Source: a virus
DNA length: 64,000 nucleotides
Direction: 5' to 3' (one strand)
IMG/VR virus record: IMGVR_UViG_3300034685_000230
Location: 1-64,000 of that record
Of the stretch, positions 9,203 to 44,890 are shown piece after piece. Position 1 is the first letter of the stretch; every line of letters starts with the position of its first letter. The notes under the pieces were generated by a model. The model was not told the DNA's origin and made no database searches. It saw nothing but the letters and a program-made list of their open reading frames with translations. Position numbers and translations under genes: made by a program.

Positions 9203-9300
9203 GTGAACTAATTACAGTCTAAAACTGCAATCTTCCTGCTTCAGCGACTGCAAGGTTCACAGTCTCTACAGGCGTAAATTCCCTGCGTCCCGCAGGTACT
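9203..9300 (-). ncRNA. Structured IS605-end/omega-RNA-like element, copy in the tail operon
   Basis: On the minus strand this 98-base element is a close relative of 44791-44890. The first hairpin reads CCTGCG-GGA-CGCAGG here and CCTGTG-GAA-CACAGG there. Both keep CAGGGAATTTACGCCTGT, AGTCGCTGAAGCAGGAAGA and a final TAGTTCAC. The last hairpin, ATTGCAGT/ACTGTAAT here versus ACTACAACTT/AAGTTGTAGT there, also changes in a compensated way. Ending with a hairpin and TTCAC is typical of IS200/IS605 right ends. It forms part of the leader of the gene at 9180; the sequence just after TTCAC, where a guide would lie, is that gene's 5' region. Confidence 0.6.
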
Positions 9301-9342
9301 AGGTTTATTTATTTTTGAACTATTTTAGTCATAATAATCATA

Positions 9343-9549
9343 TTATTTGCTGAATAAATATTTTTTTGTTATATCGTTCTTACGATTGAGCAATTTAACA
9401 TACTCTCTCTTTATCAAATAAATAATTTTTCTTCTATTGTTAGAGTCCTTTACTTATCAATTTAACTTCTTTTGTAAACGTTTAAGGCACTCACTTTTTT
9501 CAATAGAAACGTTTAACTTCTCACCGTTTGAGAGAGTAATATTAGTCTT
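9343..9549 (-). pseudogene. Remnant of a small tail-region gene
   Basis: The minus strand after the tail-tube stop codes for NITLSNGEKLNVSIEKSE and more. It is interrupted by consecutive stops TGA and TAA (9454-9459) and then continues in the same frame for about 36 protein-like codons. No standard start or ribosome site is seen. The first part resembles in style the small protein at 13649-13903 (TLASGKSIVVTMNEEQA). Most likely a decayed short gene. Confidence 0.35.
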
Positions 9550-9569
9550 AAAATTTATATATTATTAAC

Positions 9570-10097
9570 TTATGAAAAGTTGTTTATCCAAATCTTGTCG
9601 GCGGCGAACATGCTGCTGATCTCCAGCACCCCGTCATCCTCTACCGACAGGGTGATGTTCTCAATGTTCGTCGGCCAGACACCGCTCGCCTTGATCTCGT
9701 ACTGCAGCGAGTTTCCGGAGTCGTCCATGTCGGCCGTGATGTCGTACACGTTTATAGTAGCTTCCTTCTTGTACTCGTGGGCTAGTGCGATGCGGCCCGT
9801 GTTGTGGTCAAACACTAGGTTTCTCCAGCGGTACAGATCTAAGAGCGTGTCGTAAGAGTTGTCAACACCGACGAGAAAACTAGCCGTAATCGTGTACTGC
9901 TGGCTGACTCTCCCCGCCAACTGCATGATACCGCTGATCCACGGTACTGGCACGTTGTTAGTCGCAGGCATGGGTATCGTAAGAGTCCTACAGAGAATGT
10001 GTAAGGGTTCTTGGCCGACAACGATAAGTTCGAACGCGTTCTTGCGTACGAAGTCACTTCTTATGTCTACCGGGTGGTATATGTTTCGGTCACGCAC
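9570..10097 (-). CDS. 19: Tail tube protein (gp19-like)
   Basis: 175 residues, close to the T4 gp19 length (163). It forms the inner tube of the contractile tail. The family pattern is visible: an N-terminal FVRKNAFELIVVGQEPLHILC strand segment, a central basic-aromatic DLYRWRNLVFD, and a C-terminal ASGVWPTNIENITL segment like the 'WP..i' of tube proteins, followed by an acidic end. The start is GTG, 9 bases after AGAGGTG. It lies directly downstream of the sheath gene, as in T4. Confidence 0.85.
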   Translation of the reverse strand: MRDRNIYHPVDIRSDFVRKNAFELIVVGQEPLHILCRTLTIPMPATNNVPVPWISGIMQLAGRVSQQYTITASFLVGVDNSYDTLLDLYRWRNLVFDHNTGRIALAHEYKKEATINVYDITADMDDSGNSLQYEIKASGVWPTNIENITLSVEDDGVLEISSMFAADKIWINNFS

Positions 10098-10195
10098 TGT
10101 TTAATTCACCTCTAAAAGCTTTAAAATTTTTGAAGTAGGGTAGAAGTGTATTCTCCCTCTCTATTAAGTTTAGTTTGCTCTAAGGAGTACTAGTA

Positions 10196-12850
10196 CTACC
10201 CTACCTCTAGCTCGGAGAAGCTAGCTCCCGTAGACGTGATTATAAACCTGTTGATTAGTCTCTCCGCAACCTTCGTCGGCTTGAGCCAAACCTCAGCCAC
10301 CATGGTGTTGTTGTCTATGTCGAATGGGGTGTTCGTAGTCTCGTCGCAGACAACCTTAAACTCGTACAAGCCCCGCCTCTGCTTGATATCCGACAGTAGG
10401 GGGTCAACCAGCTGCGTGTATTGAATCCAAGTAAGCCTGTCGTTAGGCTCAAACAGCAGGTACTTAGTCGCTGTTGCTAGTATCTTCGTAATGTATATTA
10501 TCAGCCTCATAACGTTAACCCTGTCGAGCGCGGACGGTTTTCGCTGCAGCGTCTTCTGACCGTACACTACGATCCCGTCCCCGGTAAAGTCACAGATTGG
10601 GTTGACCGCGTTTGTTCCCGTAGCGTAGAGTAAGTCTCTGTCGGAAACGTTCAGTCGTCTCTCAACTTTCTGTACTTTAAACAGCCTACCGCGGTTTAAC
10701 CCTGCAGGAGCGTTCCACACCTCGGCTACCCTGTCGTTGTACGCGAAGACGCTTACTATCCGCACGCTGGGCGGTACCCACTGCAATGACTCCGTGAACT
10801 CGTCGGAGATCTGGATCCAGGGGTAGTACAGAGCGGCAAAGCTGGAGTTTAAGGCGTTCTCGTTCAGCCAGCGTCCCGACCCGTTGTGCCAGTTAACTAC
10901 GTCCTGAACCGTTAGACCCTGGGGAGGGTCAACGATGGCGAAGCAGTCTCCCCTCTCGTTCTCGCAGAGTTGAATTAGCTTGTTGATAACGGTTTTGTTT
11001 CCAGGAAAGTCCGGGCAAGCGATTAGGTTGATGTCGTACTGCTCTGCGTTGGCGAACTGGGAGAGAGCGCTGACCGCGGAGTACTCAGTGATGTTCTCAG
11101 CGTCGTCGTACCCACCGCTCAGCTGCAGCACCGTGTTTAGTACGGGGACAAACCCGGCTTCCTCGTTCTCTAGCTCTACGCTAACGTAGTTTGAGACAAC
11201 GCGGTTTGTGACAAAGTTTCTGCTAGAGGGGTCGCTAAACTCAATGTTTTTAAACCTCTCGGAGGGCAGCTGGTTTGTGCTTAGCTCGGGTACCCACACG
11301 TCTAACCCGTAGTTTCCGAAGTCGTCTTTGCTAAACCGAACCTTTAAACCGTTGTAGTACTCTCCCTTGTAGAGGGAGCTGACGGTTCCCATCTTAGAAA
11401 GAAAGTCAACGGTGACTGTGTCACCCTCGCTTAGACTTGCTATGTAGTTAACCGAAACGTACCCCGTGTCGTAGTCAACAACGCCGTTGCCGAGACTCCC
11501 TACTAAGTTACCCTCGCCGTCGTCCGTCAGTACTACGTCACTCCCGACTTTTACTCGCACGCTTCCCCTGATGACCGGTCGCGCTGACAGCGTAGCGGAG
11601 GCGTTGCTGGAGGTGTCTCCACCCTCACCCACGGTTTTAATTACGTCTAAGTGCTTGGCCAAGTAGTCGGCTAGTATCTGGTACCCACCCTTAAGGGGGT
11701 AAGTCAGGGCTATGTCTATAGTCTTATTATCGTAGTCTACTTTGTTCTCCGACACTACAACGTCACCCGTAAACTTGCCCTCCCCGTTGTCTTGAGCAAC
11801 CACTGTTTCTCCCACTAACACCGACACCGAGTTAGGGTAGACAACGGTGTTTAGCGAGCCGATGTACGCTCCACCGTAGGTGTACCCGTCGGGCGATGCA
11901 GTCCCTATAGTACCAAGAGTCTTAACCTTAAACGTGCTGTACTCGTAGGACGCCCTAAACACGTCTCCGACCTCAACGTTAGCGCTGCCCGAGAATGCCA
12001 CTTCCCACTGCCCGGTTATAGCGTTAACGCTTCCACTTCCAACGGTAGCTTCGCTCGTGTCTTTTCCAACCAGCGTGTACTCGTTGTTTGTAGGCGTACC
12101 GGTAACGGTAAACGTGTAAGTGTCATCACTGACTTCAACGCTTAACTCAAATGTGTTTAGGTTGACTAAGTTTCCGTGAGACAGCATGCCGGAGTACGTA
12201 TAGTCTACCGAGTTAACGGTAGCTACCGTTAGCGTAGCTTCGCCGGACACGCTCTTTGTAACGGTGTTGTACTTAATTGAAACTTCCGACCCGTCAGTCA
12301 CAACGCTCTCGTCTAGTGTAAACCTGTACTCCCCGGTATCGTAGTCTATAAAGTTTGGGTACAGTGAAATGTTGGGGTTTAACGCCGGTGAGAAAGAGCC
12401 GTGCCCGTCGTCCCTAACCGTTGTGTAGTTAGAGGGGTCGTTTGGGTCAACCAACCTTAGTTCGAGTGTTTCCGGAACCGGCGAGTAGTTTAGGGTAGCG
12501 CTGAATATGTAGCTGTTGTCGTTAGCCGCCGTGGTGACTAACTCGCCCTTAACCTCAACGGCCGTTGGGATACTAACCGTTGCTTTTCTAGCGGAGGGGC
12601 CCAGGGTTCTCGTGAACCAGAGGGAGCTACCGAACTCCAGGAAGCTAACCGCCGCTAAGCTACTGTACTCACCGACTCTAGGGGTTCCGAACAAGTCGAC
12701 AAACTGCCGCACCGACGAAACGAAAGTCGGTTCGGTAGGTCCCTTTCTCGTTTTTCCAACCAGCGCCAGTATAGACTGAGACAGCCTGGGAGCGTACAGG
12801 GAAAAATCTATAGTTTCAAAATACACTCCAGGACTCGCGTGGATAGGCAT
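10196..12850 (-). CDS. 18: Contractile tail sheath protein (gp18-like) with inserted beta repeats
   Basis: 884 residues from the ATG at 12850 (the first in-frame GTG at 12862 overlaps the ribosome site AGAGAGG). The N-terminus PIHASPGVYFETID and the C-terminal half (LSGGYDDAENITEYSA, DFTGDGIVVYGQKTL) are typical of T4-type sheath proteins, which polymerise around the tube and contract. T4 gp18 is about 660 residues. The extra length is a stretch from about residue 95 to 500 made of about four beta-domain repeats with recurring 'DDGxGxxxG', 'xxYDTGxxxVxY' and 'VxxxYxxGT' signatures. These probably form outward-facing domains on the tail. It precedes tube and follows neck/terminator genes on the same strand. 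Confidence 0.9.
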   Translation of the reverse strand: MPIHASPGVYFETIDFSLYAPRLSQSILALVGKTRKGPTEPTFVSSVRQFVDLFGTPRVGEYSSLAAVSFLEFGSSLWFTRTLGPSARKATVSIPTAVEVKGELVTTAANDNSYIFSATLNYSPVPETLELRLVDPNDPSNYTTVRDDGHGSFSPALNPNISLYPNFIDYDTGEYRFTLDESVVTDGSEVSIKYNTVTKSVSGEATLTVATVNSVDYTYSGMLSHGNLVNLNTFELSVEVSDDTYTFTVTGTPTNNEYTLVGKDTSEATVGSGSVNAITGQWEVAFSGSANVEVGDVFRASYEYSTFKVKTLGTIGTASPDGYTYGGAYIGSLNTVVYPNSVSVLVGETVVAQDNGEGKFTGDVVVSENKVDYDNKTIDIALTYPLKGGYQILADYLAKHLDVIKTVGEGGDTSSNASATLSARPVIRGSVRVKVGSDVVLTDDGEGNLVGSLGNGVVDYDTGYVSVNYIASLSEGDTVTVDFLSKMGTVSSLYKGEYYNGLKVRFSKDDFGNYGLDVWVPELSTNQLPSERFKNIEFSDPSSRNFVTNRVVSNYVSVELENEEAGFVPVLNTVLQLSGGYDDAENITEYSAVSALSQFANAEQYDINLIACPDFPGNKTVINKLIQLCENERGDCFAIVDPPQGLTVQDVVNWHNGSGRWLNENALNSSFAALYYPWIQISDEFTESLQWVPPSVRIVSVFAYNDRVAEVWNAPAGLNRGRLFKVQKVERRLNVSDRDLLYATGTNAVNPICDFTGDGIVVYGQKTLQRKPSALDRVNVMRLIIYITKILATATKYLLFEPNDRLTWIQYTQLVDPLLSDIKQRRGLYEFKVVCDETTNTPFDIDNNTMVAEVWLKPTKVAERLINRFIITSTGASFSELEVG

Positions 12851-12906
12851 GTGTAACAACACCTCTCTCTTATATTCTTAAATATCTAGATAGTGATTTT
12901 ATCTTG

Positions 12907-12924
12907 TTTTTAATTTTGAGATTA
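12907..12924 (-). promoter_or_regulatory. Candidate late-promoter box before the sheath gene
   Basis: The minus strand reads TTAATCTCAAAATTAAAA, a variant of the AATTCTAAAATTAA box. It lies about 57 bases before the sheath ATG in a 100-base gap. Assignment is by similarity only. Confidence 0.3.
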
Positions 12925-12964
12925 ACTATATGTAGACTAGTGATTTCATAAAACTATTAGATCT

Positions 12965-13609
12965 TTAGGTCAACAGTGTTTCACTGTCTACAATTCTTCT
13001 CTCGAGACTTATGTCTAAGACAGACTTCGTGTAGTAGTTCGGGTCTAGCAGCATGGTGTACAAACTAAAGGTTGCCGTACCGTGAAAGATTCTAGTGCTA
13101 GTGTCAGGTAGCTCTACGTACGGCGTAGAGTCAGTGAGTGACACGTCGTGTATGTAACCGTTTACCTCTAAGTTGTGGTTTGAAATTTCAACAAAAGTTT
13201 TTACATAGTGACGCTTATATAGGCAGAACAGTAGTTTTTCAGAAATTTCGTTGTACATCTCTTGCGTTAGGGTAAAGTAGTCAAGCTGGTAGTTTATGTT
13301 GTACGGCATCATCTCCGCACCCTCGTAGACTCTCTTATCGCTGCTAATGCTGTACAGCATCGGTCTGTTTACCTTACTCTTTACAATCTTTGTCTCTGGG
13401 TTTGGAGACAAGCCAGTTCTAACAACTGCCAGCAGGGGGAGTAGGGGAGTTTTACTCTCAGAAACTTCAAGCTTAACCCCCTGCCTAGAAGGCAGGGCAA
13501 ACGTTACCTGCGGGGAGTCTACACCCTCTCCGGTGTCAACTTTAATGTTGTCTTTAAAGTATGCAACGACTGACTCGTCGTAGAATCTTATAACGGACAA
13601 GCAATACAT
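12965..13609 (-). CDS. Putative tail terminator / sheath-stabilising protein (gp15-like)
   Basis: 214 residues, mixed alpha/beta. The segment from NRPMLYSISSD to EISEKLLFCLY (about 83-130) resembles the gp15 pattern in which 'P..M.Y.L.I.T...D.M.QI.EQILPYF' is conserved: a peptide bond-rich strand, a beta-alpha unit, then a helix. T4 gp15 is 272 residues and caps the tail at its junction with the head. The position immediately before the sheath gene and after the neck genes fits that role. Similarity is weak and by eye; it could be another tail-completion protein. Confidence 0.45.
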   Translation of the reverse strand: MYCLSVIRFYDESVVAYFKDNIKVDTGEGVDSPQVTFALPSRQGVKLEVSESKTPLLPLLAVVRTGLSPNPETKIVKSKVNRPMLYSISSDKRVYEGAEMMPYNINYQLDYFTLTQEMYNEISEKLLFCLYKRHYVKTFVEISNHNLEVNGYIHDVSLTDSTPYVELPDTSTRIFHGTATFSLYTMLLDPNYYTKSVLDISLERRIVDSETLLT

Positions 13610-13648
13610 CTATCCTTTTTTAACTGTATTTTTAACGCTTAAGCGTTA

Positions 13649-13903
13649 CTACTTGCTAAAGTCGGTTTCAACCATCTGAATCGCCGAGATCTCCGACAGT
13701 AAGATACTTACGGCTTCGATAATACTGTTGTCCTTCTTTTTCTCAATCTTTATCTTCGAAACGTCGACTTTTTCCTTGGGAATAAAGTTAACCCACTGCT
13801 CGTAGATTGAGAAAGCTTGCTCCTCGTTCATCGTAACTACGATGGACTTACCACTCGCTAGCGTAAACACCATCTTTATAACGCGGTTAGCCTTTTGAGA
13901 CAC
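13649..13903 (-). CDS. Small hypothetical protein of the neck/tail operon
   Basis: 84 residues. A short beta hairpin (MVFTLASGKSIVVTM) precedes helices and a lysine-rich middle. The start is GTG behind GAGGAGG. It overlaps the end of the upstream gene by 17 bases, so translation is coupled. No family is recognised. Its N-terminal strand pair resembles the decayed gene at 9343-9549. Confidence 0.6.
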   Translation of the reverse strand: MSQKANRVIKMVFTLASGKSIVVTMNEEQAFSIYEQWVNFIPKEKVDVSKIKIEKKKDNSIIEAVSILLSEISAIQMVETDFSK

Positions 13904-14396
13904 TTCTACTTTCCTCCTCTGTAGTATTGTATTTTTTATATAAACTTATATACTGGTCAATTATTGAGTACGCTTTCTTCACGTTTCCCTCAAACACACT
14001 CTTCTCTATATCGGGGTACAGTTTTACCGTGTCGCTGTAGCTAGAGTGGAGCATCTTGTGCACGCAGTGCATGAGCGGAACGTACGGAACGCAATTCTGC
14101 AGGTGTATGTCCGCCAGTATCATCAGCACGAAGAAGGTGTTGAAGGGAACGCCGCGTTCAACAAACTTGTCAACTATAGTTTCTACCCAGTCCCAGATAG
14201 TCTTACCGTAATGGTGTACCTCTATGTCTACGTTGGACTCGTACTTGTTAACTCCCGTAGCGGCGCAGGTACTCCTGTTACACTGGTTTAACCACATGCC
14301 GTACTCGGGGCTGAGCCTAAATAGCTTTACAACACTCTTTACAAACTGCTCGAAGTCTTCCTCGTCGAATAACTCGTAAAATATCGCGCTACTCAT
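13887..14396 (-). CDS. HNH-like zinc protein of the neck operon
   Basis: 169 residues. Residues about 39-60 hold CNRSTCAATG (Cys pair) and then VDIEVHHYGKTIWD, and after a helical stretch CVPYVPLMHCVHKMLH. The order Cys-Cys, 'E-V-H-H', and a late H-C-x2-H resembles diverged HNH nucleases of large phages. HNH proteins near the terminase often assist packaging cleavage, which would fit this position. Catalytic competence cannot be judged. The start ATG lies 8 bases before the upstream stop region. The alternative is a purely structural zinc-binding protein. Confidence 0.4.
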   Translation of the reverse strand: MSSAIFYELFDEEDFEQFVKSVVKLFRLSPEYGMWLNQCNRSTCAATGVNKYESNVDIEVHHYGKTIWDWVETIVDKFVERGVPFNTFFVLMILADIHLQNCVPYVPLMHCVHKMLHSSYSDTVKLYPDIEKSVFEGNVKKAYSIIDQYISLYKKYNTTEEESRSVSKG

Positions 14397-14403
14397 GTGA
14401 TTA

Positions 14404-15724: not shown

Positions 15725-17542
15725 TCAGTACTTTCCCTTGTAGAATGCTTTGTAAATGTTGCTTAGTGACGATGATTCTTCAGGCTTCTCCTTGCCGTTT
15801 TTAGCATTATTAATTTCTAAATTTTCACCGTACTCTTCGTCTAGTATCTTCTGAATGTCCTCGGGTCTTAGCGAGTTCCAAATGTTAGAGTTAGAGTGCT
15901 CTTGGACAAACTTAATCGACTCTAACTGGTTTCTCCTACTGTCCTCAACACCGACGGTTCGACTTAGTATACTAGCAAAGTTTCTTAGCAGCAGCTGCTT
16001 ACTCTTTGTAAAAGCGTACAGCGCGTGCACCCAGGCAAATATTAAGTCGGTTCTAGGACCGTCGGCTCGACCGTGCTCGTCTACTACAAAGTTTAGAAGC
16101 TGGTGGTGTAACCTCTCCGACTTTATAATCCCGTACTTCTTAACTACACTGTCGCTTCTCCTATTCTGCATGATCATCTCAAACTTTCTCCTAGCGTCAA
16201 ACTTGTCCTCCTCCGCTGATATGATTGAGTCCACGGCCTCCGTGTACTTGTCGATTATGATGTTGTACATGTTGGCTAGAAGGATGTCCCTAGACACGCC
16301 GGTAACGTCCGTTCCTATAGACGAGCGGTACAAGTCCCTACCGTAGTCGTAACCCGCTGTTAGCTCATTTTTCGACTTATCCCTAAACAAGTTCACGCCT
16401 ATACCGTTGTTAGTCTTGTTAAGTATCTTGTCTATTAGTATCTTACCCACGGCGTTTCTCTCTATGTTGACTAGGCAGTTGTTGTACCGCTTAGTCAAGT
16501 CGATAACAACGTCGGCGAACTTGTCCGGAATTATCGTGTTAGAGTCGTACTCAGCGACTTGCTCTAGCGTGCTAGCCTTTACGATCTGAACGGTACTCGA
16601 GTCTTTTCTGTCTCCGTACGCAACGTCTACTCCGGCTACGTAGACTTCACCCGGAACGGGGTTCTCAAAAATCCAGAGGCGGCCGTCGAAATCTGTCATG
16701 ACTGGGTCGACCGTAGCGATGGAGTCTAGAATTTGCCCCGGAACGTAGGTGTTTCCAGACGACACGAACGAGAGCTCCAGCTCGGCAGCTATCGACCTGT
16801 AGTTCCAGTTTAGCTGGCTGCACTGGTCGAGGTACCAGCTCTCGTCGTACTCCGGCACCGCGCTCCAGTGTACCCTGACTGGAACGTACTTGTTGTCCCC
16901 GTTGAGCGCTCCCTCGTACATCTGGTAGTACCACTTACCGGTGCCGGAGATACCGTTGGGGGTTGAGATAATTATGATTCCGTACGGTTTTCCCTTACTT
17001 GACTTAAACGCCCTAGAGATAGTCGGGTACGCGGCCTGGTACACGTCTTCCACTCTCTCTATGAAGGCAGCTTCGTCGATGACTAGTAAGTTAATAGACT
17101 CACCCAGAGAAGCGCTTCGAGTAGCCGGGAGGGCTGTTACCTTTGACCCGTTGGAGAATACTAGGGACTGCTTGTTGTCTGTTTCAAGCTTAAGCTTCCA
17201 AGAACTGTTTGGGAGTAGCTCATACATCTTTCTTATCTTTGAGAGAAAGGAAGCCGCGTTGCGCTGACCAGCGGATATGATGAGTATGTTGTAGTTTGAG
17301 TAGTGTAGCAGGCTCCACAAGCATATTGCCTGTACCAGTGTTGACATGCCTATCTGCCTAGACTTAAGCGTTATGATAAAGTGTTTAGCTAGAAACAGCT
17401 TGACTATCTTCTTCTGAAAGTCGTACATGTTAAACGGTATCAAGCCGTGGGCCGGGTGCTGGATCTTAACGTTGCTCTCCATCCACTGAATGGGGTCTCT
17501 TCTGTTCTTTATTAAACTCTCTAGCAGTTCTTCCGTATTCAT
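15725..17542 (-). CDS. 17: Large terminase subunit (gp17-like)
   Basis: 605 residues, near T4 gp17 (610). It pumps DNA into the prohead and cuts it. The N-terminal ATPase has FITLKSRQIGMSTL (Walker A-like, about 60), INLLVIDEAAF (Walker B and catalytic Glu, about 150) and IISTPNG (motif III, about 193). The C-terminal RNase H-fold nuclease has VYVAGVDVAYGDRKDSS (first Asp, about 313) and later NIERNAVG and DLIFAWVHA, supplying further acidic residues. ATG follows GGGTG. It is the first gene of the minus-strand late operon, divergent from the sigma-factor gene. Confidence 0.93.
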   Translation of the reverse strand: MNTEELLESLIKNRRDPIQWMESNVKIQHPAHGLIPFNMYDFQKKIVKLFLAKHFIITLKSRQIGMSTLVQAICLWSLLHYSNYNILIISAGQRNAASFLSKIRKMYELLPNSSWKLKLETDNKQSLVFSNGSKVTALPATRSASLGESINLLVIDEAAFIERVEDVYQAAYPTISRAFKSSKGKPYGIIIISTPNGISGTGKWYYQMYEGALNGDNKYVPVRVHWSAVPEYDESWYLDQCSQLNWNYRSIAAELELSFVSSGNTYVPGQILDSIATVDPVMTDFDGRLWIFENPVPGEVYVAGVDVAYGDRKDSSTVQIVKASTLEQVAEYDSNTIIPDKFADVVIDLTKRYNNCLVNIERNAVGKILIDKILNKTNNGIGVNLFRDKSKNELTAGYDYGRDLYRSSIGTDVTGVSRDILLANMYNIIIDKYTEAVDSIISAEEDKFDARRKFEMIMQNRRSDSVVKKYGIIKSERLHHQLLNFVVDEHGRADGPRTDLIFAWVHALYAFTKSKQLLLRNFASILSRTVGVEDSRRNQLESIKFVQEHSNSNIWNSLRPEDIQKILDEEYGENLEINNAKNGKEKPEESSSLSNIYKAFYKGKY

Positions 17543-17699: not shown

Positions 17700-19022
17700 A
17701 TGAGAGGCATGATAGACAAATCAGCCTTTAACTGGAACTTTAGGGAAGACGACTGGCTAGTGGACTTAGTCCTTAACAACCAGCGGCTAAGGCAGAAGAT
17801 ATTTACCTTAAAGAACTACTCGTCGCTTAGGATTAACGAGATAGTGTATGAGATATACAACATAGTTAAAAACTACAGGCAGGGTTTAGAAATAGAGTCA
17901 GAGTCTTTCCTAAAGAAAAAGCAGTTTCTAGTACTGGCCGAGAAGAGTGAAGACAGCGATAGGATACAGCTGACTCTAGAAGACGAGTACAAGCTAAAGG
18001 ACTTAATCGAACAGTACAAGATATACGAGTTGATCGGTTGGTTTCACTTGGGTAAAAACTCAAAGGTGTTTAAAATTTGCACGCTAAAGAAGCAGGAGAT
18101 ACTCGAAAAGATATACCCTATAGTCGACCTAAGTATTCGAAAGGTTATTGGGTCAAAGGTTATAAACCCGAAGAGCCCGGAGTTTGAGGAAGCCGTTAAC
18201 AACGCGTGGCTGGCTATCATTAAGTACCTACCGAAGATTGACACGTCAAAAGTGATGTTTAGTATATTCGTTGGGGTTGGCCACCGCTCCGCTATATACT
18301 ACAACATTACAAACTTGAGGGAAAAGTACAGCACTGTAAAGATAAATGACCTTAAGTCAGTAAGTGACGATGACGACGGCGTGGAAGAAGACTTGTTTAT
18401 AAGTACGGTTGTTGGTAACAGCGTAGAGAGTAACTACGATGCTGTTAGTGTCGAGAACGACGTTATCGATAGAATCGACTCAGGTAGTGTAGGGGAAGAG
18501 TTTTACTTAGAGTCGGTAGACAGCATGACGGAGGAAGCCGAGAGAGTCATTGAATCGTTGGAAAGAGACAATAAAGCAAATTACCTACAGCAGAACGTGC
18601 TAGCACACTCGTTTAACATACTGTCGGGTAAGGTAAAGAAGCTGTGCTTTGAAAAAATCTTTGCTGAGTTTTTTAGCGACTTGATAAACTCTAAAGTGTC
18701 GGAGAGAATCTTAATAAAACACTCCCCAACCCTGATTGAGATAATGAACCTTACGACGATTGACCCGGACTTAGTGGATGACGAAGAAGCCAACAACAGC
18801 GTGTACAAGCTGTTTAGGGATTGGATCAAGGAAAAGATAGAAGACAAGCTGTACAAGTACAACATTAGGCTAACGGATGACATGGATGAGTTTAAAAAGC
18901 AGCAGCTCTTAGAGATAGTTAAGAGAGAGAACAACATGATTAAGTATATGAAGGAAAACAAGAGGGACTTTATAAAGAAGTTACTCGAGTTTCGAAACTC
19001 TTGCATTAACTTCAAGACGTAA
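17700..19022 (+). CDS. 55: Phage sigma factor (gp55-like), probably for late transcription
   Basis: 440 residues. Residues about 145-210 carry a sigma region 2 pattern. LEKIYPIVDLSIRKVIGSK leads into a helix, then EEAVNNAWLAIIKYLPKID and VMFSIFVGVGHRSAIYYNI, comparable to 'DllQegxlgLlxAixkFD' and 'FstYaxxxIrxaI' of sigma-70 proteins. T4 gp55 keeps only this region and directs late transcription with the sliding clamp. This protein is much longer (gp55 is 185), with a helical N-terminal part and a long acidic middle. It opens the plus-strand late operon, divergent from terminase. The ATG at 17700 has AAGGTGG 17 bases upstream; a second ATG at 17709 is possible. Confidence 0.6.
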   Translation: MRGMIDKSAFNWNFREDDWLVDLVLNNQRLRQKIFTLKNYSSLRINEIVYEIYNIVKNYRQGLEIESESFLKKKQFLVLAEKSEDSDRIQLTLEDEYKLKDLIEQYKIYELIGWFHLGKNSKVFKICTLKKQEILEKIYPIVDLSIRKVIGSKVINPKSPEFEEAVNNAWLAIIKYLPKIDTSKVMFSIFVGVGHRSAIYYNITNLREKYSTVKINDLKSVSDDDDGVEEDLFISTVVGNSVESNYDAVSVENDVIDRIDSGSVGEEFYLESVDSMTEEAERVIESLERDNKANYLQQNVLAHSFNILSGKVKKLCFEKIFAEFFSDLINSKVSERILIKHSPTLIEIMNLTTIDPDLVDDEEANNSVYKLFRDWIKEKIEDKLYKYNIRLTDDMDEFKKQQLLEIVKRENNMIKYMKENKRDFIKKLLEFRNSCINFKT

Positions 19023-26975: not shown

Positions 26976-29900
26976 ATGGACAGAAAAGACTACACGGCTC
27001 TCCTGTCAGAGAGAGTCTGGCCCAGGGTTGAGAGACAGCTTTTGGGTGGAATCGCTGACAGGGGGCTTCAGAGAAACTTGAAAACTGTTCTCGCTAACAC
27101 GAGAAACGCGCTTTTGGCTGACACGTCAATGCAGAACATGGTATACCTCAGTGTGGGGTCATTTTAGCGAGAGCTAAAATAGCAAATCGGGTGAATTGCT
27201 GGGACTCTTTAGAGCCTCTAGTGCTACAGCGTAGTCGGTAACGACAAGCGCGAAAGCTCTAAAAAACTTAGAGGATTAGGGAATCAGCAGCCGAGCAGCC
27301 AGTACACTGGTTGAAGGTCCAGAGACTACCGGAGAGATGCTCTTAGTTCTTAAGAGCGAGTTCTCTTAATAACCGGCTAGAGCGCCCGACCCTTAGTTAT
27401 AAAGCTAAGGTGAAGATATAGTCCATCCCACAGCGAAAGCTGCGGACAAGATGCCCGAAAATTGTACTACCGTTAGTTAGACGTCTCAACGTAGGGACCG
27501 CTGTAGGGTAACCTACAGTTGCAAATTCGGTGAATTGCTGGGAGCCTTTAGAGCCCTCGGTGCTACAGCGTAGCTGGCAACGGCAGGCGCGAACGCTCTA
27601 AAAAACCGTAGGGATTAGGTAATCAGCAGCCAAGCTCCCGAAAGCGCAAGATAGTAGGGAGAAGGTTCAGAGACTAGAGGTTGAGCCAGCGCAGGCAATA
27701 ACACCTCCTCGAGCGCCGAATAACTAAAGCAGTATAGCTTTAGTTAATGATATAGTCCACTCTAGGGTGAAAGCCTTAGGTAGAGTGCTTTCCAAAACTG
27801 ATTGCGAATCAGATTATCTCGGTTCAGCCGCTCAACGGACCAACGGGTTATTAATCTAGCTCGTTTAAAATCGGGTGAATTGCTGGGAGTTCCTAAAGCT
27901 CTTAGTACTACAGAGTAGCCGGAAACGGCAAGCTCGAAAGTTTGAAAAACTAAGAGATGCAACAATGGATAACCAGCAGCCAAGCTCCTGAAGGTACATT
28001 AAGAGTATGGAGAAGGTTCAGAGACTAGAGGTTGAGCTAGTACAAGCAATAACACCTCCTAGAGCGCCCGACAAGTATTGAGTACCTTGACAATTAAATA
28101 ATACTATAGATTATATAATAATTAATATAAAAAATATTAATATATTATGGGACAGGTGCTGATCACACTTGATAAATTTAACCCTCATTTATCTTACCAT
28201 AATATATTCAATAAAAAGAGGGTTAATTATGATTCAATGTCCAATATGTAAAAAATATTTTAAGCATATTAATAACATGCATTTAAAAAAACATAATTTA
28301 ACTACTGAACAATTTAAATCATTATATCCTAATTATAATACATGTTCTAAAGAATTTAGTGAAAAACGATCGGCTGCTAATAAAATACAAATGTTAAAAA
28401 TTCATAAAAAAAATCCAAAAGAAAGATATGTTAATGTTGGTATTGGTCGAAAAAAAGCTTGGGATAATTGTTCAGAAGAAAGACGAAAAGAGATAGGGTT
28501 AAAAGCTACTGAATGTTGGAGAAAATATGATTTAAATGAAGAAAATAAACGAAAAAAATATAAAAAAGTTTCTAAATCTCTTAAAAAATATTATAAAAAT
28601 TTAGATCCAAAAGAAAAAGAAAAAATATTGAAAAATAGTTTATTTAAAATTAGAAAACATGGTGGAGCTAAAATAGAAACTAATATTAACGGAAAAATAA
28701 TTAAATTTCGATCAATACCAGAAATTTGGATAGCAGAGTTTTTAGAACAAAGTGGTTTTAGTTGGGAATATGAAACTTTAAAAATTGATTATTTAGACAA
28801 AAATAATAATATGCATATATATATTCCTGATTTTTATATAAAAGATTATAATTTAGTTTTAGAATTTAAAGGTAAAAATTTTCTTGAAGAAGATATTGAA
28901 ATATATAAAAAATACTATACAGAAAAAGCCGGATTTAATTATATTTTATTAATGTATCAAGAAAAATATTTATTATTAAAAGAATTAAAAAAGATTTTTA
29001 ATCTATAGTATTATTTAATTATTAGGTACTCAATACTTGAAGATATAGTCCGTTCCGTAGTGAAAGCTACGGAGTAAAACGTGGATTCGGTTCCTTGACG
29101 CATTTGTTGAACACATTAATCCAGCTACTGGCAACGTAAACATCTACCCCTGGTCTCAGGGTGACAGCACGTACTCTACACCGCAGAATGATTTAACGGT
29201 TGAAATTTCAGCTGATGGTACTGACACAAACTATACTGGAGTACTAAAAGACAGCGATAATAATATACTGGTACCGTCGGAGGGAACGCTCTTTGTGGAG
29301 ATTGAAAGTTCCTCCGGTACGTGGACGAAGATAGCCGAGGCTGACAGGAGTGGAGTGCTTCACTCTCTGAGTTCCGCCTATAAAGTTATAGGTGTCGTTG
29401 ACCCTAAAACACAAGAGTTTGTCGTTAACGTTACAGACTCAGCCGGCACCGTAGTCGGAAAAGCGCTTCGCTTTGCCTTTAAGGAAGACATTCAGAAGAA
29501 CATCCCGTTCGGCGACGGTAAGACCTACAACACGATGCGGTTTGAGATCACCAAGATCGCCGTCGAGGCTAAGACCCGTAAGCTGGGTGCCACGTACAGC
29601 TTCGAGCTCATGGAAGACTACAAGAACGAGTTCGGTGAGAACTTCGAGGACAAGATGGTCGACTACCTAACCACGACTATTCTGACGGAGGTCGACAGTG
29701 AGGTAATCGACACGCTGTTCAGTAAGGCTACCGTAAGCGGTTCTTGGGACGCCACGATGCCGATGACGTGGACTCGCGGTATCAACCAGTGGTACGAGAC
29801 GGTGCTGCCGAAGATAAACAAGCTGAGCAACTACATCTACCAGGCAACCCACGTCTCCGGAGCAACGTTCCTGGTCTGCAGCCCCGTTACGGCTACCATC

Positions 29901-35094: not shown

Positions 35095-35134
35095 ACCTTA
35101 CTCCATCTCACTTTAACTCTATAAGTTAATTAAA

Positions 35135-35235
35135 TTGTGAACTACCCCCACCTATAGAGGTGGTGGCTTCGTGGTCAATGCTCCCATCGGAGCAAGATTA
35201 CCCACGCTCAAAGGGCTGTTCCTTCCCCAGCTTTA
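35135..35235 (-). ncRNA. Omega-RNA-like structured RNA with IS605-type right end
   Basis: On the minus strand the transcript expected from the promoter at 35239-35267 starts near 35232. It contains hairpins TGCTCC-GATG-GGAGCA and CCACCT-CTAT-AGGTGG and ends GGGGGTAGTTCAC (end near 35138). This is the classic IS200/IS605 right end, the source of TnpB guide RNAs. No TnpB is encoded here. The bases following TTCAC, where a guide would lie, are AATTTAATTAACTTATAGAG. It also acts as the leader of the deaminase gene. Confidence 0.55.
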
Positions 35236-35238
35236 CCA

Positions 35239-35267
35239 ATTATACAGTATTAGGAAAGAATTGTCAA
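35239..35267 (-). promoter_or_regulatory. Perfect consensus promoter
   Basis: Minus strand TTGACA (35262-35267), 17-base spacer, TATAAT (35239-35244): a full match to the bacterial housekeeping consensus. It lies between two palindromic ends and would transcribe the omega-RNA-like element and the deaminase and AcrIII-1-like genes. Confidence 0.85.
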
Positions 35268-35270
35268 GCG

Positions 35271-35316
35271 ACATTCATCACCCACTTATAGAAGTGGGCG
35301 ACTTCTGTCGTTAATT
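35271..35316 (-). repeat. Second IS605-type palindromic end (left-end-like)
   Basis: Minus strand CGAC-AGAA-GTCG followed by CCCACTT-CTAT-AAGTGGG and GATGAATGTCG. It shares the CTAT-loop hairpin with the elements at 1-127 and 35135-35235. With them it would bound a miniature IS605-like element of about 180 bases containing only a promoter and the structured RNA. Confidence 0.5.
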
Positions 35317-38923: not shown

Positions 38924-39384
38924 TAGAAGTCAGACTCCCTTCTATCCTGGTAGTAGACGTTTAGTACTACGCTGTAGCAGACGTCCCTGTGCACGTCGGT
39001 GCTACCCAGCTGAAACTTGTAGTACCGGTCGTCGTAGGGAAGCTTAAGCTCAACGATGTCATCTTCCTTAGGGTGGTCGTCGAACTTCATGATTCCGTTT
39101 AGCGTAGTGTTTGTCTCTACCGAGTGTCCGTAAGCTTTGAGTACTTCGTTGAACCGGTTGTAGTCAACGTAAACGTGAGTGTTTACCGTGTGGTACAAGT
39201 CCTCGTCCGTATGGTACGTAGTAGGGGTGTCTTGATACATAGGGTCCAGGACGGGCTGAATCCCTACCCATTTTCTAAGCCTGCACGGTATACCGTACAG
39301 TTCGATAATCTCGTCAGCGTAGTGCCTGAGTAGCGGCTTGTCGTCTAACTCGTGAAATATCTCGTTAAAGTTGATCTCTGCCAA
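38923..39384 (-). CDS. Hypothetical virion-type protein
   Basis: 153 residues, using TTG at 39384, two bases after the M15-frame stop; the longer reading from 39402 lies inside that gene. It has an N-terminal helix (NEIFHELDDKPLLRHYADEI), then a strand-rich half with LKLPYDDRYYKFQLG and VVLNVYYQDRR. The layout resembles small head-tail or baseplate proteins of large phages, but no family assignment is safe. Confidence 0.5.
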   Translation of the reverse strand: MAEINFNEIFHELDDKPLLRHYADEIIELYGIPCRLRKWVGIQPVLDPMYQDTPTTYHTDEDLYHTVNTHVYVDYNRFNEVLKAYGHSVETNTTLNGIMKFDDHPKEDDIVELKLPYDDRYYKFQLGSTDVHRDVCYSVVLNVYYQDRRESDF

Positions 39385-39385
39385 C

Positions 39386-39946
39386 CTACACCACCATTCC
39401 AAACCAGTCAGTTTGCTTGTCTTTTCGCATCGCAGCTAGCGTGTGCTCAACAGTGTTAAAGTAAGTGTAGACTCTCTTACCCCTATCGCTGTCGTAGCGC
39501 GAGAGCCAGTACAGCAAGGAACTCCTAGTGTCTACGTGTATAAACGACAGTTTACTACCGCTTTCAAGCTGGTTTAAACCGACGCAGTTAAAAACACCCG
39601 TTGCTTTTAGCAACACCTCACCGGCGTTTAACTTTCCGCATGTAGTAAAGTCAACGGCATCTCCGCTTGAGTGCAAGCTTGAGTTACACAGCTCAGTACT
39701 TCTACCGCACTCTAGACAGCGGTAAGCGCTTACGATCCTGACCGGAGTGTTACCAATGCCAGACCTAAGCTTTTCCAGTCTGTCAAGTAAGCTCGCGCTT
39801 ACTACTACTCTCCCGCAGTGTCGGCACTTAAACTCACCGACTCTAAAGTGTGGGGACAGGTGCCTACCGCTATAACGGTAACCGTCACTTACTCTAACGT
39901 ATGGTGAGCGGTAAAGCCAGCTCCTACACTTTTCTACGACTGCTCT
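39386..39946 (-). CDS. Peptidase M15-like domain, probably reached by -1 frameshift
   Basis: 186 residues in an open frame without ATG, GTG or TTG upstream of its conserved part. It carries the M15 (VanY/L-alanoyl-D-glutamate) peptidase pattern: HLSPHFRVGEFKC at the start, PVRIVSAYR, then LHSSGDAVDFT (zinc ligands His and Asp), VGLNQLE and FIHVDTR (third ligand His). Two CxxC pairs (CRHC, CLEC) are added. It would cut host peptidoglycan cross-bridge peptides. The frame is entered at T TTT TTA (39946-39952) of the preceding gene by a -1 shift, giving a fusion of about 347 residues. This could be an endolysin or a tail-associated peptidase. Confidence 0.65.
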   Translation of the reverse strand, partial: RAVVEKCRSWLYRSPYVRVSDGYRYSGRHLSPHFRVGEFKCRHCGRVVVSASLLDRLEKLRSGIGNTPVRIVSAYRCLECGRSTELCNSSLHSSGDAVDFTTCGKLNAGEVLLKATGVFNCVGLNQLESGSKLSFIHVDTRSSLLYWLSRYDSDRGKRVYTYFNTVEHTLAAMRKDKQTDWFGMVV

Positions 39947-40428
39947 AAAAAAGGGACGTCTTTCTTACTCTCCTCCATGGAGAAGAGAATAACGTTACTC
40001 ACGAACAGTGTCTTCATGTTGTCACTAAGTTCAACGATGTAAAACTTCTGTAGGTCGTCCTCACCTAAGTCAGCTACAAAGTCAACCGTTAGGAAGCCAT
40101 TTATCGTGACGGCGTAGTCGTTGGGTGAGAAGTCTTCAACGTCTACAGCCCTACCGTCGGGCGTCATGATTTTTTGACCTGGGTATACTACAATATTATG
40201 ATCTTGCAGGCCCATGCCTGACACCCTAATCAGCTTACCGACAGCGGCGTCTATCTCCTGCATATTTAGTATATTCGAGGTTTCCTCACCGTTGGGCCTG
40301 AAACCCGCCACTCTGAAGTCTGAGTTGAGTAGTTCTTTCTTAAAACTGTCGTACACCGCGTAGGCTTGTACGTTGCCGTGCGATGTGTACAGCTCGGAGT
40401 TTTCGTGTACAATGAACCTTTGAGTCAT
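39934..40428 (-). CDS. Hypothetical protein, N-terminal part of a frameshift fusion with the M15 peptidase
   Basis: 164 residues in frame, ATG after AAGGAG. Mostly beta (GKLIRVSGMGLQDHNIVVYPGQ, DYAVTINGFLTVDFV). No known family. Its last codons read CCT TTT TTA GAG CAG TCG TAG, containing the U UUU UUA heptamer. A -1 slip there removes only three residues and adds the M15 domain. The in-frame product would then be a short form without peptidase activity. A virion-linked targeting domain is a reasonable guess. Confidence 0.6.
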   Translation of the reverse strand: MTQRFIVHENSELYTSHGNVQAYAVYDSFKKELLNSDFRVAGFRPNGEETSNILNMQEIDAAVGKLIRVSGMGLQDHNIVVYPGQKIMTPDGRAVDVEDFSPNDYAVTINGFLTVDFVADLGEDDLQKFYIVELSDNMKTLFVSNVILFSMEESKKDVPFLEQS

Positions 40429-40468
40429 TTCGTACTCTCCTTTAGCTTAACTACTTATAATATTAAGT

Positions 40469-43321
40469 TCAAAAATACTTAACTTTACTGCTTCTACTCT
40501 TAGACATAAACTTGTTAAACACACCGTTGCTCTTAGCGGTTACCTCAAACGGTAGCTGCCAGCCCAGTGCGTTGTAAAAAGACTCAACTGGCTTAATAAT
40601 TAGTCTTTCCTTCATCTTATCGTAGTCAACGTCAAGCTTACCCTCGATTAGCTGCCAGTACTGGCTTCCGTCCGGTACGGACAGCACGTACTCCTTCCTT
40701 TGGTTTAACTCACTATCACTCCATTTCTTAACGTATATGTACTTAACTTTACCGGTCTTAATCTTGTCAGTCTTTTTCTTAGCAAAGTAGTCGTTCCACA
40801 CCCTGGCTCCCCTTATGTGAACGGGGAGGTTCTTGACGTATGAGTCGACGTTGTTCACCGATATGGGGAGAGCTATATCCTTTAGCTGGTACTCGTTCCT
40901 TAACCTCTCGCACTCTCGCACAACTATAGAGTCTACTCTGTCCTTACCATCAAGCTTTAGTATACTTAGCAAAACATTTTCTAAAAACGGTTTTAGCGCC
41001 TTCGGCGTGCTAGACCGTCTTAGGGATATACCGACGGACTTTAGCTTGTCTACCGGTACACCCTCGCTGAATATAATGTGTATGGCGTACGCTTTCTTCG
41101 CCACAAATATCCCCGTGTCGGCTAGCCACTCGTTCTTTATAGTCAAAAAATTATTAGACCTACTTACCCTATACTTGTAGAATATGTCTCTACACACCGA
41201 GTATATAGACTCGTTGATGTAGTCTTGACACTCCTTAGAGACAGCGGATATCTTCTTCAAAACTTCAGGGTCCCTCTCCGTTGGGTTGTAGTCTACCACG
41301 CCCTCGAGAGTAAATATGATTGAGTCGGTGTCGTTCGTTATAACATAGTCTTTTTCCTGGCTGGCTTGTGTCTTACCGTTTAGAAACTTATTCAGGAGGT
41401 AAGAACACGTTCTTATCAAGAGCTGGCCCGTAGTTGTAATACCCTCCGATATGTCTAAGTTGTACAGCCTGAAGCCCTCGTTAGCCGTAGCCCCGTAGAC
41501 CGAGTTGTTGATGATTTTAACAGCCGTTTGGTAGACGTTGTACATGTTGTAGAGACTCTCGTTTCCCCGCTCTAAGTTGGCTAACATAAGCTTCTTATAC
41601 TTTTCTCTCGACTGCATTATGTCGTCGATAACCTTAGCGATAATAGCATCATCTTTACTCTGGTCGACTATCAGCCCGTTTGGTAGTAGGCAAAAGTTGT
41701 TGTCTCTCAGCCATCTCTTAAGGACCCCTAAGTTCTCAAACTTGCTCGGAAAACCCTTGTCTGTGTACAAGTCGTAATACTCAACTTCCATGTCGATATA
41801 CTCTCTCTCAACGGACTTTAAGTTTACAGTACTCTTACTCTCAATATCTTTAAGGAGCCTAACGTCGTACTGCAGGTACTTCGGTAGCAGCTCGTCTCTA
41901 ACGTACTCTAGACTGTCGATATTTAGCGCTTTTGCTATAGTGTAAGCGACTAGCTGCTGGTAGCAGTCTACCCTGCCGACCAATGTTTCGGTAGACAGTA
42001 AAAACGTTTTAACTATTGACGGGTATAGGGACTTAAAGTCTAGGTCAGACACCCACTTGAACAGTCCCTTAAGCGGTGGCTTTACGTACGCTCCTAAGTA
42101 CTTATCCTTCGAAGTGTGCTTTGGTTTTGATGGAAGCACGTAGTTCCAGCCGCTCTCCTCCCTACGCCTAACAGCCTCCATTAAGAGAAGGTTGTCTATA
42201 ACTCGAGTCTCGTAAAATATGTCCTGAAAGTTAACCTTTGAGATGTTTCTTATCGTAACAGCTAAGTTTATTATCTTCAGCTTGTCTTCCAGCATTGTTA
42301 GCAAGCGTACGTCTTGAACGTTGTACTTGCAAAACTTAGTAAAATCACTTAAGTACAAGTCGGACGGGTCAACGTACTCTTCGTCACCCGCGCCGTTGAT
42401 TAGCTTTGACTCGCCGAGTTCTTCCTCGGCGATGTACTTCAGCGCGTACGACGGTTTTTCGGTGTCGGTGTACTTCTTGTACAGCGTTAGCATGTCTACA
42501 ACGTCTATACCTGGGATAACGTTGTCCATGTCTAAGTCTTGGTTGTTTTCAAGCGCGTACCTAACCTTTGAGCTAACGTAGTCAAACGGGCTTAACACTC
42601 TAAGCCCGTCTACACCGATGTAGTCGACTACCTTCCTACAGATGTACGGAATGTCAAACTTAGAATTCCAAGCGGTTACAATGTCCGGGTAGTTCTTCTT
42701 AACAAACTGTATAAACGAAACGAGTAGCGCTTTGGGACTGTCAAAGAGGTATACCTCTACCTCACCGTACTCCCTTACTTCCTTCTCAACTTTCGCCTGC
42801 GCGACTGATCGCTTGTTAGCTTCGTCTCTAGTTAGCAAAAACCACGAGTAAAACTTACTCGTGTAGTTGTCGTATACCGTTACGGCGTTTATGTCGGCTA
42901 GGTTGTTCTTAAAGCTAGGCATGTTCCCGTCGGTGACGTAAGTCTCAATGTCTAGGTAGAATATTCTCGGGGATATAGTCGACGGAAACTCTACGTTGTA
43001 GAACGAGTCACACACAAACCTCTGCTCGGGTGACACGTCCGCTTCCCCGTGCGGTAGGTTGGATGACTTGTAGAGTTCGTACGCTTCCTTAGGGCTAACG
43101 TACACTTTTACTAATTCTTCACCCGTGTTTAAGTGCTTGTAGACAGTATCGTTGACACCGTACCTACGGTATCTAGAAGACATAAAAATGTAGTGGTCGA
43201 AGGGAACTGAAGCGTAGTTAAGTCGGTGTGCCCCCCTCACCCTGTAGTACATGTCAATGCAGCGGTTCTTACTGTTATACTTTATCTTAGTAGGTAAAAA
43301 ATTAATCTTTCTATGCGTCAC
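40469..43321 (-). CDS. 43: Family B DNA polymerase (gp43-like)
   Basis: 950 residues; T4 gp43 is 898. It is the replicative polymerase with proofreading. Exonuclease motifs: FYLDIETYV (Asp124, Glu126), VTAWNSKFDIPYI, and FCKYNVQDVRLL. Polymerase motifs: VSDLDFKSLYPSIV (A), KIINNSVYGATANEGF (B) and YVITNDTDSIIF (C, DTD). All catalytic residues are present. The C-terminus ends in a basic FMSKSRSSKVKYF, a position where T4 polymerase contacts the clamp. The start is GTG with a weak site. Clamp and clamp loader lie at 59668-62579 on the same strand. Confidence 0.95.
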   Translation of the reverse strand: MTHRKINFLPTKIKYNSKNRCIDMYYRVRGAHRLNYASVPFDHYIFMSSRYRRYGVNDTVYKHLNTGEELVKVYVSPKEAYELYKSSNLPHGEADVSPEQRFVCDSFYNVEFPSTISPRIFYLDIETYVTDGNMPSFKNNLADINAVTVYDNYTSKFYSWFLLTRDEANKRSVAQAKVEKEVREYGEVEVYLFDSPKALLVSFIQFVKKNYPDIVTAWNSKFDIPYICRKVVDYIGVDGLRVLSPFDYVSSKVRYALENNQDLDMDNVIPGIDVVDMLTLYKKYTDTEKPSYALKYIAEEELGESKLINGAGDEEYVDPSDLYLSDFTKFCKYNVQDVRLLTMLEDKLKIINLAVTIRNISKVNFQDIFYETRVIDNLLLMEAVRRREESGWNYVLPSKPKHTSKDKYLGAYVKPPLKGLFKWVSDLDFKSLYPSIVKTFLLSTETLVGRVDCYQQLVAYTIAKALNIDSLEYVRDELLPKYLQYDVRLLKDIESKSTVNLKSVEREYIDMEVEYYDLYTDKGFPSKFENLGVLKRWLRDNNFCLLPNGLIVDQSKDDAIIAKVIDDIMQSREKYKKLMLANLERGNESLYNMYNVYQTAVKIINNSVYGATANEGFRLYNLDISEGITTTGQLLIRTCSYLLNKFLNGKTQASQEKDYVITNDTDSIIFTLEGVVDYNPTERDPEVLKKISAVSKECQDYINESIYSVCRDIFYKYRVSRSNNFLTIKNEWLADTGIFVAKKAYAIHIIFSEGVPVDKLKSVGISLRRSSTPKALKPFLENVLLSILKLDGKDRVDSIVVRECERLRNEYQLKDIALPISVNNVDSYVKNLPVHIRGARVWNDYFAKKKTDKIKTGKVKYIYVKKWSDSELNQRKEYVLSVPDGSQYWQLIEGKLDVDYDKMKERLIIKPVESFYNALGWQLPFEVTAKSNGVFNKFMSKSRSSKVKYF

Positions 43322-43376
43322 TTTAGCCAGCTGTTAACTTCTAACCCCCCTTCAAACTTGCTCTTCTCAACACTCA

Positions 43377-44171
43377 CTAAACTTCTAAAATTCTACTAAG
43401 ACGACTGGCCTGCCACTCCTCCGCCTCACCCTTCGCTTTCTTAGCTACGGCTCGGGCATCTTCTATCTCTACGCTATTATCCGCTAGCGTGTCAGCTAGA
43501 ACCGTAGCGTACACGGCGTTTCTAGCCGCTCTGGCGGTAAGCTTCGCGGCACTCACCGCGCTACCGTCAGTTAGCGAGGCAAACATGTCGCTTAGAGCTA
43601 TTAACCGGCTGTGGTGGGAGTCAACCTCGCGCGTACACATTGCCTTAGACTTAACCGACCGGCTGAAAATATCATGCACCCACTGCCGGGTGTGGTCGTA
43701 GTTAATCTTGTGTACGTACGCTTTCCTACACGCAAACGCATTGGTTAGGAAGCGCGCCGCGTCTACCGCGCTGAACAGGTAAGCGTTGTCAGGGTACATT
43801 TTTTCGTACAGCGCAAGCACGTACTCCACACAGTCGGAGGCAAACTTTCGAGCCGCGTCCTCAGTCCAACCGGTGCATTCTCTCACAAGCCTACACTCTC
43901 GAGCAACGTACTCGTCACCGCAGTCAACCACCTCTTGACCAACCTCAGTTTTGAATATTCTAGGACCCAACCGGTTTAGTAGCTGTCTAGTATCGGCAAC
44001 GTGGTACCCGTTTGAACACCCCTTTAACTCTCCGTCGGCTAGACTCATCCACTCACCGGGAGTCCAGCTGCCGTTTCTGCTAAGCGTGGGTAGAGACCAC
44101 TTAACCGTGTCGCCGTGACACGAGTACCCTGACTCGTTGAGTACCTTGTAGAGGTTAACTTTCCTTTCCAC
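43377..44171 (-). CDS. DUF7666-type accessory protein
   Basis: 264 residues, GTG start 7 bases after AAAGGAGG. The N-terminal 60 residues have YKVLNESGYSCHGDTVKWSLP, then WTPGEWMS and CSNGYHVADTRQLL, a small domain frequent in phages and actinobacteria (DUF7666 style) with 'YK.l...g.s.hGG...WslP...PG.W....g....c..GyH'. The rest is helical and Ala-rich, with several Cys and His. Function unknown. It is preceded by a strong promoter (44259-44286), so it is probably expressed early. Confidence 0.55.
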   Translation of the reverse strand: MERKVNLYKVLNESGYSCHGDTVKWSLPTLSRNGSWTPGEWMSLADGELKGCSNGYHVADTRQLLNRLGPRIFKTEVGQEVVDCGDEYVARECRLVRECTGWTEDAARKFASDCVEYVLALYEKMYPDNAYLFSAVDAARFLTNAFACRKAYVHKINYDHTRQWVHDIFSRSVKSKAMCTREVDSHHSRLIALSDMFASLTDGSAVSAAKLTARAARNAVYATVLADTLADNSVEIEDARAVAKKAKGEAEEWQASRLSRILEV

Positions 44172-44258
44172 AGCATTTCCTCCTTTGTTTAATGAAAAAT
44201 ATTTTCTATTACTATAACACTTTGACTTTTTTTCTCTCCTATTTTATTACCTACACTT

Positions 44259-44286
44259 ATTATATCACATTTCTTTATAAAGTAAA
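44259..44286 (-). promoter_or_regulatory. Host-type promoter with extended -10
   Basis: Minus strand TTTACT (44281-44286), 16-base spacer, TGA-TATAAT (44259-44264). It lies in the 205-base gap before the gene starting at 44171. Nothing else was seen in the gap. Confidence 0.8.
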
Positions 44287-44376
44287 CTAGCAATCAACAC
44301 AAAATATACTTAACACGCTTACATGATATTTTTCTACTAGCTATTTATTCATTTTTTTATATACTGTACACTACTA

Positions 44377-44670
44377 TTATAACTCCCTCATGTACAAGTC
44401 ACCCACGAAGTCAAACTGAGTGCCGTACGGCCACTCGTCAGGATCGTCGTAGTCACTTTTTCTCTCCGTTACCCTAAAGCTACTCTCCGCGACTACTACC
44501 GCTACAACAACGCCGCCCTCCGTAACCTCGTCTGGAATTCCGTCTGGGTCGTCTGAGTAGTCGTCAAGTATGTTTTGAGCCATTCTCATCGCATCTTCCT
44601 TACTGTCGGCTAAGTACTTACAGTTGTTAAATTTATCGTAGACAATCCACCTAACTCTTTTGTCTTCCAT
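44377..44670 (-). CDS. Small hypothetical protein
   Basis: 97 residues, acidic, ATG after AAAGGAG. It begins RWIVYDKFNNCKYLADSKED, like a short beta-beta-alpha unit, with a beta strand VVVAVVVAESSF. No family is recognised. It is part of the minus-strand block of small, probably early accessory genes. Confidence 0.6.
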   Translation of the reverse strand: MEDKRVRWIVYDKFNNCKYLADSKEDAMRMAQNILDDYSDDPDGIPDEVTEGGVVVAVVVAESSFRVTERKSDYDDPDEWPYGTQFDFVGDLYMREL

Positions 44671-44790
44671 CTTACTCTCCTTTTTACTTATAGTTAATAT
44701 ACACCAACAACTTATTATCTATGATCTTTTCATTCAGACTAAATGCTTGCAAAATATAAATTAATAATATAGAAATACTGAGTGTATCAG

Positions 44791-44890
44791 AGTACCTGTG
44801 GAACACAGGGAATTTACGCCTGTGGAGACTTCGGAAGTCTGTAGTCGCTGAAGCAGGAAGACTACAACTTTTAAGTTGTAGTTAGTTCAC
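44791..44890 (+). ncRNA. Structured IS605-end/omega-RNA-like element, second copy
   Basis: 100 bases, homologous to the minus-strand element 9203-9300. Three stems (CCTGTG/CACAGG; GACTTC/GAAGTC; ACTACAACTT/AAGTTGTAGT) vary with compensating changes, while loops and linkers (CAGGGAATTTACGCCTGT, AGTCGCTGAAGCAGG) are kept. It ends TAGTTCAC. The bases that follow, CAAAATCTCTTTATTTTTTC, would be the guide if it worked like omega-RNA. It fills most of the gap 44671-44910; the rest shows nothing. Confidence 0.6.

Follow-up and report, generated by a model that had tools for sequence, protein, structure and literature searches.

As normally described, an OMEGA RNA is joined to its own nuclease, and this locus raises the question of how several such RNAs come to lie in a phage with no nuclease gene beside them. 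The window, the 64,000-base stretch analysed here (positions 1-64000), is part of an 89,471-base IMG/VR viral record, a linear and incomplete fragment with genes of a T4-like myovirus (Gp23 capsid, tail sheath, T4-like terminase and portal). The initial annotation had taken four structured elements in the window as copies of one family, all of them IS200/IS605 right ends of the kind that yield omega RNAs. We find two families of TnpB RNA, here called X (elements A and B) and Y, and one IscB RNA (Table 1); the right-end reading holds for A, B and Y and gives way to HEARO for the element at 1-126. We consider it probable that these are nuclease-less OMEGA guide-RNA units in a T4-like myovirus, derived from IS200/IS605-type elements, and that Y was mobilised in trans.

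In ISDra2 the TnpB RNA comprises the tnpB 3' end or right end plus about 16 nt of flanking DNA, and cleavage requires a TAM (PMC8612924). The phage elements resemble this omega RNA (reRNA) in being right-end RNAs with a terminal hairpin followed by TTCAC and with a predicted guide taken from the flanking DNA, and their homologues lie directly 3' of tnpB or overlap it. They differ in having no tnpB attached and in belonging to RNA families other than that of ISDra2.

Table 1. Elements and predicted guides in the window, with the evidence for each.
Feature	Position	Strand	Basis
Element A, X-family TnpB omega RNA / right end	9203-9299	minus	Covariance model R1, 107.5 bits (training-set member)
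Predicted guide of A, CGACGAATGCCGAGGTGTTA	9183-9202	minus	Position after TTCAC
Element B, X-family TnpB omega RNA / right end	44792-44890	plus	Covariance model R1, 113.1 bits (training set)
Predicted guide of B, CAAAATCTCTTTATTTTTTC	44891-44910	plus	Position after TTCAC
Element Y, whole	35137-35316	minus	Left-end hairpin, promoter, omega RNA, right end
Y left-end hairpin region after TTTAA(C) target motif	35276-35316	minus	About 20 aligned left ends; 40-nt fold -21.3 kcal/mol
Y promoter TTGACA-17-TATAAT, sigma-70-type	35239-35267	minus	12/12 consensus positions
Y omega RNA and right end	35137-35254	minus	Covariance model R2, 134 bits, E 1.5e-36 (training set)
Predicted guide of Y, AATTTAATTAACTTATAGAG	35117-35136	minus	Position after TTCAC
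HEARO 5' part, rest cut off by left contig edge	1-126	minus	RF02033, 49.2 bits, E 2.5e-9
Predicted HEARO guide (5' flank), over stop codon of 865-aa gene	127-146	minus	Sequence read directly

A and B align over 97-99 nt, from GTACC, exactly where the homology starts, to TTCAC, and differ in 19 aligned columns, mostly within stems. Placed on the predicted fold of B, these changes alter both sides of three pairs and one side of five, all of which still pair, and two more involve a gap. The features first remarked on in this pair, a shared length of about 100 bases, compensatory stem changes and identical linkers, are thus all present (about 97 nt, with the three double-changed pairs remaining paired). 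Taken alone, the comparison of A with B is modest evidence (33/35 pairs kept, P ~ 0.05 against random substitution); both folds are more stable than shuffles, with z values of -3.3 and -3.2. A covariance model (R1) was built from three sequences, A, B and a relative linked to TnpB, and 15 of the 391 genomes searched from the class that contains Caloramator match it at E up to 1e-8. Within an alignment of 30 distinct X sequences (A5), which was fitted to the structure of the model and leans towards it, 20 of 26 pairs are double-changed, a number reached by 0/500 shuffles, and 91% of cells pair, falling to 35-46% when the partner is slid by 1-3 columns. Covariation in family X is overwhelming once homologues are included, and the selection on RNA structure that was initially proposed is borne out. 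A blastn search of A against annotated phages gave no match, the element being too diverged, and permissive Rfam scans returned nothing credible for B or Y. An identical copy of B is found in a contig (L003) of a near-identical phage.

The parent of family X is clear: it is a tnpA, tnpB and RNA element of Caloramator australicus (L120), in which intact TnpA (125 aa) and TnpB (380 aa) are encoded and the X RNA follows 12 nt after tnpB. TnpB sequence lies directly upstream in 17 of the 22 clostridial X copies that could be assessed. The X copy of Rhodothermus phage RM378 (25646-25739, R1 E 2e-16) retains a left-end hairpin, a TTGACA/TACAAT promoter and the start of tnpB (MFRAYKYRIYPNKKQKE...) ahead of the RNA; with 164 nt of TnpB-like sequence left, including the N-terminal start, its internal deletion is still visible. 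Upstream of A and B we found no TnpB remnant or pseudogene within 1.6 kb and no left-end hairpin, the best 40-nt folds being -8.9 and -5.3 kcal/mol as against about -21 kcal/mol for the left ends of Y and RM378. A strict search for perfect hairpins missed the RM378 control, and left ends were therefore judged by folding. Relative to the closest collinear phage (G009), A is an insertion: at the A site G009 shares the start region downstream (GAGGTGTTAC.ATGG) and has a short spacer. B is located in a region of extra genes not present in G009. A and B have thus lost tnpB and the left end and keep the full RNA fold. Since no left end is detectable they are not complete miniature elements, and they are probably no longer mobile; as right-end/omega-RNA units of a second family they would have shrunk further than the RM378 copy.

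The sequence TTAATAATATANAAAT has only two exact copies in the window, at 9553-9568 (minus) and 44761-44776 (plus), lying in the same orientation upstream of the X elements, about 250 nt from A and 16 nt from B. Its enrichment near A and B was discounted, because the motif had been picked from the same comparison and the argument is circular.

Y, a relative first placed at 35135-35316, stood up as a structured element and carries both a left-end hairpin and a GTAGTTCAC end. The left ends of about 20 Y copies align as TTTAAC(C)TAAT...GACAGAAGTCGCCCACTTCTATAAGTGGGTGATGAATGTC, and this left end and its TTTAA(C) flank are common to full-length and short copies from Caloramator, phages and the window. 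The left end is about 1.2-1.3 kb from the RNA in full-length copies (about 1.3 kb), with the tnpB region between, and about 70-115 nt from it in short copies, that of the window included. In the region corresponding to the promoter, TTGACA-type sequence also occurs in many of the full-length copies elsewhere and in some of the short ones. Pattern matches come from Caloramator, Fervidobacterium, phages and RM378, some of them near-identical in phages and Caloramator, and the core RNA is identical in the window and two other contigs (L009 and L010). Among 17 copies in phage records, which were collected by sequence pattern and are not a random sample, 5 are preceded by TnpB sequence and the other 12 are not. 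The same ends occur at different sites (L008/L085, L010, L074, L082 and the Caloramator copies): in the related phages G006 and G011 (62% sheath identity), Y adjoins the tail sheath gene, a site other than that in the window, and in RM378 it lies at 128208-128321, behind a sigma-factor gene. The omega RNA of Y in RM378 wholly contains the annotated protein Rm378p143 (27 aa, 84 bp; L011 1607-1690), which is probably spurious. The regions of G009 that correspond to the sites of A, Y and the 1-126 element are free of them. The G009 sites without A and the 1-126 element, and the different position of Y in G006 and G011, led us to reject the idea that the elements serve a conserved role at a fixed locus.

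Judged by its sequence, Y is a non-autonomous but complete derivative of IS605, and the near-identical cores found in several phages point to recent movement. The initial suggestion of miniature elements moved in trans suits Y, with its left end, TTTAA(C) motif, right end and varied sites; it does not suit A and B, which have no left end. We suggest that TnpA from the host or another phage would recognise the left- and right-end hairpins of Y and move it beside TTTAA(C). Deletion of the whole of tnpB would have put the sigma-70-type promoter directly before the omega RNA, so that this RNA should be transcribed alone. In its first stem the window copy is without the GCCA half found in most homologues (alignment A4), and its RNA may be impaired for that reason. 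PATEs and other transposase-free IS605 derivatives (PMC3119063) are likewise short, carry IS605 end palindromes and are presumably moved by TnpA in trans; the phage elements differ from these in retaining the omega RNA, and in Y also a promoter, and in their location in phages.

It is somewhat unlikely, in our judgement, that all four elements are no more than decaying IS ends whose RNA has no function and which no longer move. The absence of tnpB, the missing left ends of A and B and the lost stem half of Y are what such decay would leave behind. Y nevertheless retains both ends and a perfect promoter, its recent movement is indicated by the near-identical cores, and nearly all pairs are retained in A and B; simple decay would not predict such RNA structure without tnpB, unless the loss was recent.

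The element at the contig edge is of another class. At 1-127 a plus-strand TnpB/IS605 right end had been proposed; the structured element itself is confirmed, and it proves to be a minus-strand HEARO. Window positions 126-1 align to positions 1-107 of the RF02033 model, and the score lies below gathering since the 3' truncation leaves half of the RNA; owing to this truncation it did not come up when the whole window was scanned with Rfam at gathering cutoffs. By BLAST, 1-126 is 82% identical to G008:24744-24867, a full-length HEARO beside an IscB gene that matches RF02033 at E 7e-35, and close copies score 159-160 bits; full-length copies occur in related phages. We therefore assign 1-126, on sequence similarity, to the IscB omega RNAs. 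It differs from full HEARO in being cut by the contig edge, and iscB was not found in the record; its 3' half, and any iscB, would lie off the contig. As the contig ends inside the RNA, we make no orphan claim for this element. The guide of a HEARO RNA lies 5' of the RNA, and in the window this side faces an 865-aa structural gene. In another phage record (G019, L147 at about 782-834), a HEARO 5' remnant abuts a tRNA-like 3' part, followed by a tRNA gene.

The search for nuclease and transposase domains extended beyond the window to the complete 89,471-base record. PF07282, PF01385, PF01797 and PF14239 had zero matches in this incomplete fragment; searches for the first three gave positives in control genomes, and PF14239 had no positive in any control genome and is present in four related phages. 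The absence of tnpA and tnpB near the elements, noted at the outset, thus holds throughout the record. Because the record is an incomplete 89 kb, the remainder of the genome may contain a TnpB, TnpA or IscB gene, in which case the elements could not be called orphans. That the unsequenced part does encode TnpB and/or IscB, with A, B and Y as extra guide loci, we regard as unlikely. The linear record ends inside HEARO, and related phages do carry such genes: six IscB genes (PF14239; L158-L160 and L162-L164) are found in G010, G017 (two) and G008 (three), an IscB fragment (L161) and two TnpBs in G009, and one TnpB in RM378. The G009 TnpBs, however, belong to other RNA types, and that of RM378 has its own, different right end. 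G009, the closest relative, carries two complete TnpB-only IS elements with different RNA families (L109; L083 3346-4593), one of which sits between the orthologues of window 15725-17542 and 17700-19022.

Within the preferred reading, in which IS200/IS605-type elements left or delivered OMEGA units in the phage without a nuclease gene, each RNA, if transcribed, would have as its guide 16-20 nt copied from the phage DNA beside the element. Since this guide is phage sequence next to the insertion, genomes without the insertion could be cut by a cognate TnpB or IscB supplied by the host or by a co-infecting phage. Cutting would be the expected outcome rather than repression of the TldR type, as the RuvC D-E-D motifs are kept in those TnpBs linked to the X and Y RNA families that were examined (by script, with two members giving no match to the middle motif pattern). 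In plasmids, TnpB can drive an insertion by cutting insertion-free copies (PMC11870625); the predicted logic is alike, the difference being that the phage RNAs would need a borrowed nuclease. Guide activity with a borrowed TnpB or IscB is speculative.

It seems quite unlikely that the solo RNAs load a host or co-infecting TnpB or IscB, cut insertion-free rival phages and so spread like homing elements, although the RNA structures of A and B are complete, Y has a perfect promoter, Caloramator and related phages have cognate TnpBs with intact catalytic motifs, and there is the plasmid precedent. When the bases after TTCAC were compared with phage DNA, as initially proposed, no match beyond chance appeared elsewhere in the record, and against the record and all retrieved DNA the predicted guides gave no convincing second target, Y having a single chance-level 12-mer. 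Recent insertion alone explains why the elements are retained. The broader form of this idea, an RNA-only homing element in which both OMEGA classes borrow TnpB or IscB to cut rival genomes, is more doubtful still. That the RNAs have been domesticated as regulatory guides of a nuclease-dead, TldR-like TnpB, a use also raised initially, is most improbable, and the idea was rejected: phage location and a TnpB-type guide RNA are shared with phage TldR systems, which are known (PMC13418256), and there is an overlap between the guide of A and the ribosome-binding region of the small phage gene that follows, but the record holds no TnpB or TldR domain and no nuclease-dead homologue, the linked TnpBs retain D-E-D, the guides of A and B share nothing, and all guides are mere flanking DNA, as at any IS605 insertion, with no sign of target selection.

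Other features of the window include three tandem group I introns with very short spacers at 27139-29078, just upstream of the Gp23-like capsid ORF (27139-27445, 27475-27779 and 27839-28128 onwards); within the third is an AT-rich ORF (28169-29008) weakly similar to endonucleases, and together they probably split the major capsid gene. A 1189-aa ribonucleotide reductase (46655-50224) contains about 200 residues (441-646) that do not align to G009 and could possibly be an intein or intron.

Each component of the system is already known. What appears to be new is that three OMEGA RNA families have accumulated in a single phage record that has no nuclease gene, and that sibling copies occur in RM378 and other phages; in the part of the literature searched we found no paper on such an accumulation. 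RM378, an isolated phage, carries solo TnpB-type omega RNAs of both families, X and Y, which are unannotated as RNA in its record. A phage lineage that repeatedly holds RNAs of the TnpB and IscB branches without the enzyme, one of them behind a perfect promoter, offers a direct test of trans action and of the way in which IS200/IS605 elements become smaller and spread in lytic phages.
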